Shown piece by piece: positions 7,882 through 17,821 of a stretch of 20,183 nucleotides of DNA. Under the pieces are notes generated by a model. The model did not search any database, was not told where the DNA came from, and saw nothing but the letters and a program-made list of their open reading frames with translations. Source of the stretch: a virus. The stretch is from the IMG/VR virus record IMGVR_UViG_3300025450_000159, positions 1-20,183 of that record; one strand, written 5' to 3'. The number at the start of each line of letters is the position of its first letter. The stretch's first letter is position 1. Position numbers and translations under genes: made by a program.

Positions 7882-7897
7882 AGGGGCCGTAGCCCCT
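7882..7897 (-). terminator. Short GC stem-loop between virion genes, weak terminator candidate
   Basis: On the minus strand AGGGGC-TACG-GCCCCT forms a perfect 6-bp stem with a four-base loop, followed by TTCTTT. It lies seconds after the stop of the 237-aa gene (TAA at 7905-7903) and before the Shine-Dalgarno of the 1028-aa gene. The T tract is interrupted, so it may only partly terminate and could instead lower expression of, or protect, the downstream or upstream message. Confidence 0.5.
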
Positions 7898-8705: not shown

Positions 8706-8733
8706 ATAATACATCAAATAAATAAATTGTCAA
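8706..8733 (-). promoter_or_regulatory. Strong sigma70-like promoter for the second structural operon
   Basis: On the minus strand a perfect TTGACA (8733-8728) is followed by a 16-base AT-rich spacer and TATTAT (8711-8706). The predicted start near 8699 leaves a leader of about 80 bases before the ATG at 8616. The -35 box lies just after the terminator of the capsid gene, so transcription would be restarted here. It indicates use of host RNA polymerase for late genes. Identification is by consensus match only. Confidence 0.75.
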
Positions 8734-12019: not shown

Positions 12020-12424
12020 TTATGCTGCTCTTTGAATACCACGGGGGTCTTGCACGGTAGCCTCAACTTGATCGTCTTTGATCAAGCGAAATTCTTTGCC
12101 GTGTATCTTGATCCGTGTACCAGTATTGGGACGGACAATAACAAAGTCACCGACTTTGCATGATGGCCCAGATGGGAATCTGGTTGCATCTTTGTATGCA
12201 TCAGGCCCCATCTTCACTACGAATAATACTGGTGTCAGTACCTCTTCAAAGTGCATGGTCTGTGATGATTTAACTAACTCTCCTTCTCCTTCAAACTTCT
12301 CATCCACTTCAGGCAATACCGTCAGCAAATGAAACGTTTTAGGTTCGGGAAGTTGAGTAGCTTTGTCCTCCGCTTTCTTATTAAGAATGCCAGACAAGTC
12401 TACGGCTTGAACATTAAAGTCCAT
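12020..12424 (-). CDS. GroES-like phage co-chaperonin, 134 aa
   Basis: The core LLTVLPEVDEKFEGEGELVK (33-52), VLFVVKMGPDAYKD (66-79), FPSGPSCKVGDFVIVRPNTG (83-102) and TRIKIHGKEFRLIKDDQVEA (103-122) follows the Cpn10 fold: paired beta strands, a mobile loop near 41-60, then the GD-V-(hydrophobic)-G-(K/E)-(L/I)-x-x-(D/E)-D-(hydrophobic) signature of GroES-type proteins. It is longer than bacterial GroES (about 97 aa) because of an N-terminal extension and an insert. T4 gp31 is the established example of a phage co-chaperonin replacing GroES for capsid folding. No GroEL gene is visible, so host GroEL is the expected partner. A GGAGG site sits directly below a predicted leader pseudoknot (see 12431-12482). 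Confidence 0.82.
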   Translation of the reverse strand: MDFNVQAVDLSGILNKKAEDKATQLPEPKTFHLLTVLPEVDEKFEGEGELVKSSQTMHFEEVLTPVLFVVKMGPDAYKDATRFPSGPSCKVGDFVIVRPNTGTRIKIHGKEFRLIKDDQVEATVQDPRGIQRAA

Positions 12425-12430
12425 AATTTT

Positions 12431-12482
12431 CCTCCGCAGGGGGCTACAAAATAGCTTACCGATACGCCCCCGCCATATCGGT
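12431..12482 (-). promoter_or_regulatory. Predicted H-type pseudoknot against the GroES-like gene ribosome-binding site
   Basis: Read on the minus strand, ACCGATA (12482-12476) pairs with TATCGGT (12464-12458). The loop contains GGGGGC (12471-12466), which can pair with GCCCCC (12444-12439) just downstream. This gives a 7-bp stem 1, a 6-bp stem 2 (extendable by two pairs with a bulge) and a 13-base AT-rich linker. The GGAGG Shine-Dalgarno (12435-12431) begins three bases after stem 2. Folding could block ribosome loading. Base pairing is read directly; function is inference. Confidence 0.55.
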
Positions 12483-12490
12483 TCACTTCG

Positions 12491-12694
12491 TTATTCGTTG
12501 TCTTCGTCTTCCTTGAAACGTCTCATCATGGTGTCTATCTCGCCTTTGCAAAGGGACAAGCCCTTGAAAACACCACACATTTCAGAATACTCGGCATAGT
12601 CCCTGGCACTTTTGCCAGACAATGCAACTGCATATTGGTCTTCAATCTGCTTGATCTTTACCAATAGATGTTCAAGTATTTTTGCTTCCATCAT
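12491..12694 (-). CDS. Small helical protein, 67 aa, unknown function
   Basis: The protein is short, charged and likely all-helical (EAKILEHLLVKIKQIEDQYA, later EMCGVFKGLSLCKGEIDTMM, RRFKEDEDNE). It has two Cys residues in a CGVFKGLSLC spacing but no zinc pattern. Similar tiny helical proteins (with a CG.(I/F).GL motif) often follow phage portal genes. The start ATG overlaps the portal stop as ATGA (12694-12691), so translation is coupled. It may help portal or scaffold assembly, judged only from position. Confidence 0.65.
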   Translation of the reverse strand: MMEAKILEHLLVKIKQIEDQYAVALSGKSARDYAEYSEMCGVFKGLSLCKGEIDTMMRRFKEDEDNE

Positions 12695-15945: not shown

Positions 15946-17427
15946 CTAGTAATACGCTTTCTTGCGTCTGAAATATTTAGGTTCATCTTCCTCATCGCTT
16001 GGAAGTCTTAAGAACCCACCCTGCCTAAACCTGATCAACGCCTGACTTGAGCTATCTACATAGTCATCATGTTCCGCATTTGGAAACCGTGCCATCTCTT
16101 CAATCAAATCATCAGCCCATCTCTTATCAGGCGCCCACACTTTTCCTGAATTAAATAAATCAGCCACGCTATTTAAACGTACAAATTTATCATTGCCACG
16201 AGTAGGAGTGTACTCCGATACAGGTATTCCCATAGACCTTAATTCAAACACCAGTGGCGCACCAGCCGCTTTAGCCTCAACAATAAACGCATCAGGTTGC
16301 CATTCTTTATATCCCTCTAGCGCCGCTTTCTTTAGTGCAGGAAATTCCAATTTATCTCTATACGCATCAAGGAGAATAATATGCTTATCGGTCGGATCTT
16401 CATTTAAACTAAACACACCCCAAGTCGTACACGCAGAATAGTCCGCCCGCTCAGATTTTGTAAACGCCGTATCCCAACTCTGAATAATAAAATCACAAGG
16501 AGGCGGCATCTCACTCTTCCATCTCTTCCACGACTCCCGCTTAATAATCGCACCCTCTTCACCAGTCGGCTGCTGCTGATACTGGGCGTTCCATTTATAA
16601 ACACCAATCTCTTCCTTGACCGACATCAATTCTTTGAGCGGCCAAAACTCAGGCCATAGCGGATTACCTGACGGCATAATCGCAGGTAACTCAATTACCT
16701 CCCAATCCTCCCCCGCCGCATTTCTTAATATCTTTCCCGTCAAATCTTTATCCGACCAACGGGTCATCACAATTACTATCCTTCCCCCTGGTTGTAAACG
16801 CTGCCTTGGCCCAGACGTATACCATTCAAACACGGAATCAAAAACAGTTGGATCACCCTGGGCTAATCTCGCCTCCTGTTCCGAGTGAGGGTCATCAATG
16901 ATCATCAAGTCCGCACCCTTACCCGTCATCGTACCGCCCACGCCAATCGCTATATATTCACCCTGAGCATTGGTATTCCACTTACCCGCGGCCTTACTAT
17001 CCGCCGCAAGTGCTATGCCAGGGAATATAGAATCGTACTGCTCGCTATCAACAAGATTCCTAACCTTACGACCAAACCCCACCGCCAAGTCCGCCGTGTT
17101 ACTAGACTGTATAACTTTCTTATCAGGATAATTCCCCAAGAACCAAGACGGCAAAAGATAGCTTGCAAACTCAGACTTAGTATGCCGAGGAGCCATATTG
17201 ATAATAAGACGTTTAAGATTGCCATGTACAACCTCCTCAAATTTCTTAGCCATCACAGCGTGGTGTCTTCCGTGCACAAACCCAGGCCACATAAATTTTA
17301 CATACTCTAAAAAATTAGCCTGACACTTCTCCCTCGTCAACGCTTCCTTATACTGCGTCATCTGCTTTAAAAATTTCTCCTGCTCATTCACAGGCAACTT
17401 AGACAACAACTCTTCAATCTGCGACAT
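15946..17427 (-). CDS. terL: Terminase large subunit, 493 aa
   Basis: This is the ATP-driven DNA packaging motor and headful or cos nuclease. The ATPase domain has a Walker A-like loop APRHTKSE (79-86), a Walker B segment LMIIDD (174-179) and a MTRWSDKDL coupling segment (221-229). The C-terminal RNase H-like nuclease has D319 in QSWDTA, E384 in IVEAKAAGA and D455 in HDDYVDS, the expected acidic triad. Length is normal. The start at 17427 has AGGA upstream and overlaps the winged-helix gene by 14 bases. It acts with TerS and docks on the portal encoded just downstream. It is complete, with no frameshift. Confidence 0.95.
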   Translation of the reverse strand: MSQIEELLSKLPVNEQEKFLKQMTQYKEALTREKCQANFLEYVKFMWPGFVHGRHHAVMAKKFEEVVHGNLKRLIINMAPRHTKSEFASYLLPSWFLGNYPDKKVIQSSNTADLAVGFGRKVRNLVDSEQYDSIFPGIALAADSKAAGKWNTNAQGEYIAIGVGGTMTGKGADLMIIDDPHSEQEARLAQGDPTVFDSVFEWYTSGPRQRLQPGGRIVIVMTRWSDKDLTGKILRNAAGEDWEVIELPAIMPSGNPLWPEFWPLKELMSVKEEIGVYKWNAQYQQQPTGEEGAIIKRESWKRWKSEMPPPCDFIIQSWDTAFTKSERADYSACTTWGVFSLNEDPTDKHIILLDAYRDKLEFPALKKAALEGYKEWQPDAFIVEAKAAGAPLVFELRSMGIPVSEYTPTRGNDKFVRLNSVADLFNSGKVWAPDKRWADDLIEEMARFPNAEHDDYVDSSSQALIRFRQGGFLRLPSDEEDEPKYFRRKKAYY

Positions 17428-17821
17428 CTAATTTCCTAAAGTTTATATACACTGGCCTGACACTCCTCTCCATCCCCTTCATTTTCTTCAATACGCCAAG
17501 CTTTATCAGCCGCTCTATTATTTCATGCGTACTCCCCAAACTCCTACTATTCCTGTACTCCATCACCTCCCGAACTGTCGGGCCATATCCATACTTTTTC
17601 CAATACTCATCAATAAATATAAATACGTTTGCTTGGTTCTTTGTCATCTTAAGTTCTAAACACTCTTCGTAATTTAGATCCTTTTTGCTTGCAATCATTT
17701 TAGTATTTAATACTTTCGTGGGGGGTGACGCACAACGTTTAGTGTGACCCCCTAAAATAGTTCTAATTAAACGCTTTCTTTTGCGCTCCATTAATATTAA
17801 ATACTTACTAACTTGATCCAT
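17414..17821 (-). CDS. LexA-type winged-helix DNA-binding protein between terS and terL, 135 aa
   Basis: Residues about 59-125 match the LexA N-terminal DNA-binding domain: TKNQANVFIFIDEYWKKYGY, then GPTVREVMEYRNSRSLGSTH and EIIERLIKLGVLKKMKG. The GYGPTVREV turn and the S...H..I..L...G.(L/I) recognition-helix region are characteristic. There is no LexA peptidase domain. The N-terminal 58 residues are basic (LILMERKRKRLIRTILGGHT). The ATG at 17821 has a GAGGAGC site five to six bases upstream, so the full 135 aa is preferred, though M42 or M59 are alternatives. It overlaps terL by 14 bases. It could regulate late transcription or recognise a packaging site alongside TerS. Confidence 0.72.
   Translation of the reverse strand: MDQVSKYLILMERKRKRLIRTILGGHTKRCASPPTKVLNTKMIASKKDLNYEECLELKMTKNQANVFIFIDEYWKKYGYGPTVREVMEYRNSRSLGSTHEIIERLIKLGVLKKMKGMERSVRPVYINFRKLDVAD

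Follow-up and report, generated by a model that had tools for sequence, protein, structure and literature searches.

The region in front of a GroES-like co-chaperonin gene of an uncultured phage folds into an H-type pseudoknot RNA, in which the loop of a hairpin (S1) base-pairs with a single strand further downstream to give a second helix (S2). Comparison of related leaders indicates that this RNA structure is under purifying selection. The decisive evidence for the pseudoknot is comparative and does not come from the single sequence. It is plausible that the leader pseudoknot controls translation of the GroES-like gene. Our main reading, to which we give a probability of about 0.55, is that it acts in cis and replaces translational coupling by structure-gated initiation of this gene.

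Leader layout and adjacent genes

The leader lies on the minus strand of the window, i.e. the whole 20,183-nt stretch of an IMG/VR virus record analysed here, and occupies a 66-nt intergenic gap (12425-12490). The elements are listed below in the direction of transcription.

12491-12694 (-): upstream gene, 67 aa, TAA stop at 12493-12491; a family without Pfam or PHROG match
12483-12490 (-): spacer CGAAGTGA from stop codon to S1, 8-9 nt in all leaders, fast-evolving
12476-12482 (-): S1 5' strand, ACCGATA
12472-12475 (-): L1, TGGC
12466-12471 (-): S2 5' strand, GGGGGC
12465 (-): L2, a single invariant G
12458-12464 (-): S1 3' strand, TATCGGT
12445-12457 (-): L3, AAGCTATTTTGTA, 5' part conserved, remainder variable
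12439-12444 (-): S2 3' strand, GCCCCC
12436-12438 (-): invariant TGC, linker between S2 and the Shine-Dalgarno sequence (SD)
12431-12435 (-): SD, GGAGG
12020-12424 (-): GroES-like co-chaperonin gene, 134 aa, ATG at 12424

S1 has 7 bp (ACCGATA/TATCGGT) and S2 has 6 bp (GGGGGC/GCCCCC); the GC of L1 can lengthen S2 across a bulged U (GCGGGGGC/GCCCCC-U-GC). The 3' end of S2 is located 14 nt upstream of the AUG, and AAAATT separates GGAGG from the ATG. An earlier, sequence-only reading of this DNA had described the 7-bp S1, the GGGGGC loop, GCCCCC and GGAGG, all of which were found where it had placed them, on the minus strand. It had also put GCCCCC immediately before GGAGG, which is incorrect: because TGC intervenes, S2 ends 3 nt from the SD. 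The gap is indeed 66 nt long, and most neighbouring genes are less than 20 nt apart, but gaps of 46, 53 and 160 nt occur in the window too.

The assignment of the downstream gene as GroES-like, also proposed in the sequence-only reading, is supported by database comparisons. The gene was assigned to PHROG 3188 (co-chaperonin GroES) in 41 of 41 relatives, and the Pfam Cpn10 domain was matched in 37 of the 41; the window protein itself scores 19.6 bits, under the cut-off of 21.1, and matches solved GroES chains in the PDB with E-values of 7e-7 to 2e-6. The AlphaFold model of the protein (pLDDT 53) was too poor for use. The upstream 67-aa family has a C-G-V-x-x-G-L motif and adjoins the GroES-like gene in many relatives.

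Taken by itself, the window provides modest evidence for the fold. Perfect H-type pseudoknots with 7-bp and 6-bp helices are expected 0.31 times per dinucleotide-shuffled window on both strands, so that one such structure somewhere in the window is unremarkable. The leader pseudoknot is the only one found, and simple arithmetic from the shuffle count gives an expectation of about 0.0005 for one 66-nt gap on the coding strand. Nested folding alone revealed nothing special at the leader (z -1.16).

Distribution and covariation of the leader

The searches of IMG/VR used both neighbouring proteins, the GroES-like one and the 67-aa one upstream, as well as DNA patterns. The leader was found in about 30 contigs and in two phage contigs of a metagenome-assembled genome (L115 and L120), which collapse to 13 distinct leader sequences, the rows of our alignment. 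L115 and L120 are different phage contigs binned in one Bacteroidetes genome, probably a binning artefact and not a host link. A relative of the upstream 67-aa protein is encoded by 27 IMG/VR contigs, and every one of them has the leader, which in L238 is truncated by the contig end. Each of 11 leader-bearing records has one copy, at the GroES-like gene only, and a covariance model run over the window and 15 records gave one strong match per leader phage. Whole-genome and IMG/VR pattern scans detected no copies at other genes; the remaining pattern matches lack S1 or are coding. The leader is known from one clade of uncultured phages. No covariance-model match was found in named relatives except one at E=0.15, and a blastn search of the leader against 50,697 phage records yielded chance matches only. 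A search of Rfam (4227 families), suggested in the sequence-only reading, found no family at gathering score in the window and none at E<=10 for the leader.

In the 13-row alignment, 99.4% of helix cells are paired, with 99-100% in both helices. In controls with the 3' partners slid by 1-3 columns, only 35-49% of cells are paired and double changes are absent. Three pairs are double-changed, two in S1 and one in S2. In S1, an A-U pair is replaced by G-C in the L021/L256/L257 branch, and a second A-U pair is replaced by G-C in L013 and L014. In S2, a G-C pair is replaced by A-U in L256 (AGGGGC/GCCCCU), a compensating change. The 5' strand of S2 is GGGGGU in 6 of the 13 distinct leaders. Nearly all one-sided helix changes lead to G-U, and G-U intermediates are present at columns 13 and 29. 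One event on the tree suffices for each double change. The events are therefore few, and the covariation evidence comes from three such changes within one clade.

The significance of this pattern was estimated by simulating evolution without any structural constraint on the FastTree tree of flanking genes, with as many changes as had been observed (5000 runs). The probability of at most one broken cell was 0.0002, the probability of at least three double-changed pairs was 0.0026, and the two occurred together in 0 of 5000 runs. The pseudoknot noticed in the single sequence has hence held up in a covariation test, as the sequence-only reading had proposed, that combined 13 leaders, slid controls and the tree simulation.

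The rates of change point in the same direction. The number of parsimony changes per column is 0.57 in S1 and 0.42 in S2, compared to 2.0 in the spacer between the stop codon and S1 and about 2.7 at third codon positions; the helices evolve 4-6 times slower than the latter. Among the unpaired elements, the number is 0.5 in L1, 0 in L2 and the TGC linker, and 1.0 in L3.

Two other candidate elements were rejected. A third helix (GCU/AGC) inside L3 shows no covariation and is lost in L256 and L257. A leader peptide, which reads MAGAYR in the window, is missing from L256, and in L013 it falls out of frame. Pairing of the U-rich L3 with the complete SD is possible in L013 and L014, 35 nt upstream of the start codon of the GroES-like gene.

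Proposed control of initiation and alternative readings

The arrangement of the two genes differs between phages with and without the leader. In leaderless relatives, the GroES-like gene and the upstream gene share an overlap of 8 or 14 nt (47 loci entries), whereas the leader phages have a gap of +66 or +67 nt (46 entries) or, in L257, +68 nt; the distribution is bimodal, with entries that include repeats of the same contig. The named relatives HTVC027P, 023Pt_psg01, DSL-LC04 and MinM2 are without the leader. The spacing between SD and AUG is conserved, and a strong SD is often missing among the leaderless relatives shown. The end of the upstream protein falls at roughly the same position with or without the leader, so the leader resembles a segment inserted between the stop and start codons; it may have been gained here or lost elsewhere.

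We propose the following model. In leaderless relatives, translation of the GroES-like gene would be coupled to that of the upstream gene, as the overlap suggests. In the leader clade, this coupling would be lost and the GroES-like gene would start independently from its own SD, GGAGG. A ribosome terminating at the upstream stop codon would halt just short of S1 and leave the knot unmelted: as S1 begins 8-9 nt past the stop codon, the terminating ribosome should not open it. During initiation, the folded S2 would lie at the upstream margin of the 30S subunit, which must accommodate the knot since S2 ends 14 nt before the AUG. S2 would then have to dock on the platform of the subunit, to be either melted or retained there, as with the rpsO mRNA, whose pseudoknot docks on the 30S platform and must be melted by protein S1 (PMC3858243). 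With such docking and melting, the stability of the fold would set the rate of co-chaperonin synthesis. We lean towards a knot that lowers rather than raises GroES-like output. None of the present results supports the sensing of a protein, a small ligand or temperature that had been suggested in the sequence-only reading. S2 consists completely or nearly completely of G-C pairs (stacking of about -15 to -17 kcal/mol), and therefore temperature sensing is unlikely.

The leading rival is a regulated operator, which we consider possible though clearly less probable. Here, a phage protein (perhaps the co-chaperonin or a capsid protein) or a small ligand would lock the knot and shut off translation, in the modes of gp32, S15 and preQ1. 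Conservation of the unpaired L2, TGC and 5' part of L3 is similar to that of the helices, as would be expected for a binding site; these conserved bases are compatible with such a site and do not prove one. The placement adjoining the SD resembles translational H-type riboswitches, and the dosage of co-chaperonin relative to capsid protein could be a plausible reason for feedback. On the other hand, the leader has no Rfam match even at an E-value of 10, and it occurs at a single gene in one clade, whereas metabolite riboswitches recur across genes and hosts. A narrower and rather doubtful form of this rival is feedback on co-chaperonin dosage: the GroES-like protein, or a capsid protein that it helps to fold, would bind the knot on the 30S platform, so that co-chaperonin synthesis keeps step with head assembly.

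Less probable again is a roadblock or mRNA-stability element that would block the passage of scanning ribosomes or of exonucleases from one gene to the other and have little effect on initiation. Both helices are rich in G+C, and S1 starts 8-9 nt past the stop codon in every leader though the spacer sequence varies. However, the invariant TGC holds S2 tight against the SD, and a pure stability element does not need this.

We also regard as unlikely, to a slightly greater degree, a two-state switch in which the pseudoknot frees the SD and thereby activates translation, while an alternative hairpin between the U-rich L3 and the purine-rich SD, which also uses the 3' strand of S2, closes the ribosome-binding site. 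The timP mRNA is a precedent for an activating pseudoknot (PMC11295053). The L3-SD hairpin reaches -10.1 kcal/mol in L013 and L014 (P=0.003 versus shuffled L3) and -8.4 kcal/mol in L021 (P=0.03). By a crude energy estimate, the pseudoknot and nested alternatives are near-equal, being within about 3 kcal/mol, and nested folds are favoured in L013, L014 and L021, which also counts against our main reading. Nevertheless, only 83.7% of cells in the L3-SD helix are paired, no better than in shuffles (241/500), L008 and L257 have a weak helix or none, and any U-rich loop pairs with a purine-rich SD by chance.

A role of the DNA itself, as a palindrome, a promoter or an intrinsic terminator, is very improbable, and so is a fold that arose by chance. 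S1 followed by AAGCTATTTT scores as a weak terminator-like signal, with 1.0 expected in shuffles, but L010, L016 and L021 have kept the fold without the T-tract. No promoter-like site was found on the strand of the leader. The G-U pairs, and covariation in two helices that interleave, are as expected of RNA and not of DNA symmetry, and a chance fold is excluded by the tree simulation. Finally, we give hardly any credence to a stimulator of recoding, by which readthrough of the TAA or frameshifting would yield a fusion of the upstream protein with GroES: a stop-to-pseudoknot spacing of 8-9 nt is typical of viral readthrough stimulators and the 66-nt gap of the window is in frame and stop-free, but the frame is closed in L021 (TGA), L256 (67 nt, TAA) and L257 (68 nt, TAA), the upstream stops are all TAA, and no slippery heptamer precedes them.

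Comparison with known systems

The closest phage parallel is gene 32 of T4, T2 and RB69, which shares with the present leader an H-type pseudoknot in an intercistronic leader upstream of the SD. The gene 32 pseudoknot is kept among related phages despite sequence divergence (PMC535899). In T4 it is located ~67 nt upstream of the AUG and nucleates gp32 binding on a downstream A+U-rich (UUAAA-rich) tract (PMC3014915, PMC535899). In contrast, the leader described here ends 14 nt before the AUG of a co-chaperonin gene, has no known binder, and has no UUAAA/UAAA repeats between S2 and the AUG, where the sequence is TGC-GGAGG-AAAATT. The parallel drawn in the sequence-only reading is thus apt for an H-type structure in a phage leader and fails for the A+U-rich tract and the distance to the AUG; the comparison is an analogy, not membership. 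Given the missing tract and the lack of an Rfam match, the leader would be a pseudoknot of its own sequence family.

The mRNA of E. coli rpsO (ribosomal protein S15) has a pseudoknot at the ribosome-binding region that is accommodated and melted on the 30S platform (PMC3858243). The rpsO knot pairs with the coding sequence and brackets the start codon, whereas the leader knot is wholly 5' of the SD. The preQ1-I/II, SAM-II and other translational H-type riboswitches are small knots with a 3' end adjoining the SD, as here. However, in those riboswitches the SD is in, or sequestered by, the ligand-bound knot, while here it is outside both helices; neither a ligand nor a metabolic gene is linked to the leader, and the Rfam search gave no match to the preQ1-I/II or SAM-II consensus. 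The 5' UTR pseudoknots of timP and tisB influence how the 30S subunit is recruited, and not simply by masking the SD (PMC11295053), but these are activators in bacterial type I toxin mRNAs of unrelated sequence.

The HTVC023P-type pelagiphages and their relatives belong to the same phage group (terminase 45-57% identical) and have the GroES-like gene; GroES is a core gene of the HTVC023P-type group (PMC9599517). They lack the leader, with no significant match to its RNA model, and their GroES-like gene either overlaps the gene before it or follows it almost directly. The leader clade offers a clean natural comparison: the same two genes are presumably coupled by overlap in relatives and are separated by a knot here.

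No leader-pseudoknot control of a GroES-like or co-chaperonin gene was found described in the literature searched. According to a 2010 review, the T4 gene 32 pseudoknot may be the sole viral one in translational autoregulation (PMC3014915). A second leader pseudoknot supported by covariation, in an unrelated phage group and in front of a chaperone gene, would mean that control of this kind has arisen more than once. Co-chaperonin dosage in phage head assembly is otherwise little understood. The feedback reading, if true, would add a new RNA family and a further case of viral translational autocontrol by a pseudoknot.

Three other features of the window were observed. A protein with a LexA-type DNA-binding domain (PF01726, E 1.8e-8) is encoded at 17414-17821 (-), between the genes for the small and large terminase subunits, an unusual placement for a repressor-like protein. 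A terminator-like hairpin, AGGGGCTACGGCCCCT followed by TTCTTT, is present at 7882-7897 (-) in the 46-nt gap after the 7903-8616 gene. A strong promoter-like site, TTGACA-16-TATTAT (11/12), is located at 8706-8733 (-), in the 160-nt gap that separates the major capsid gene from the next gene.
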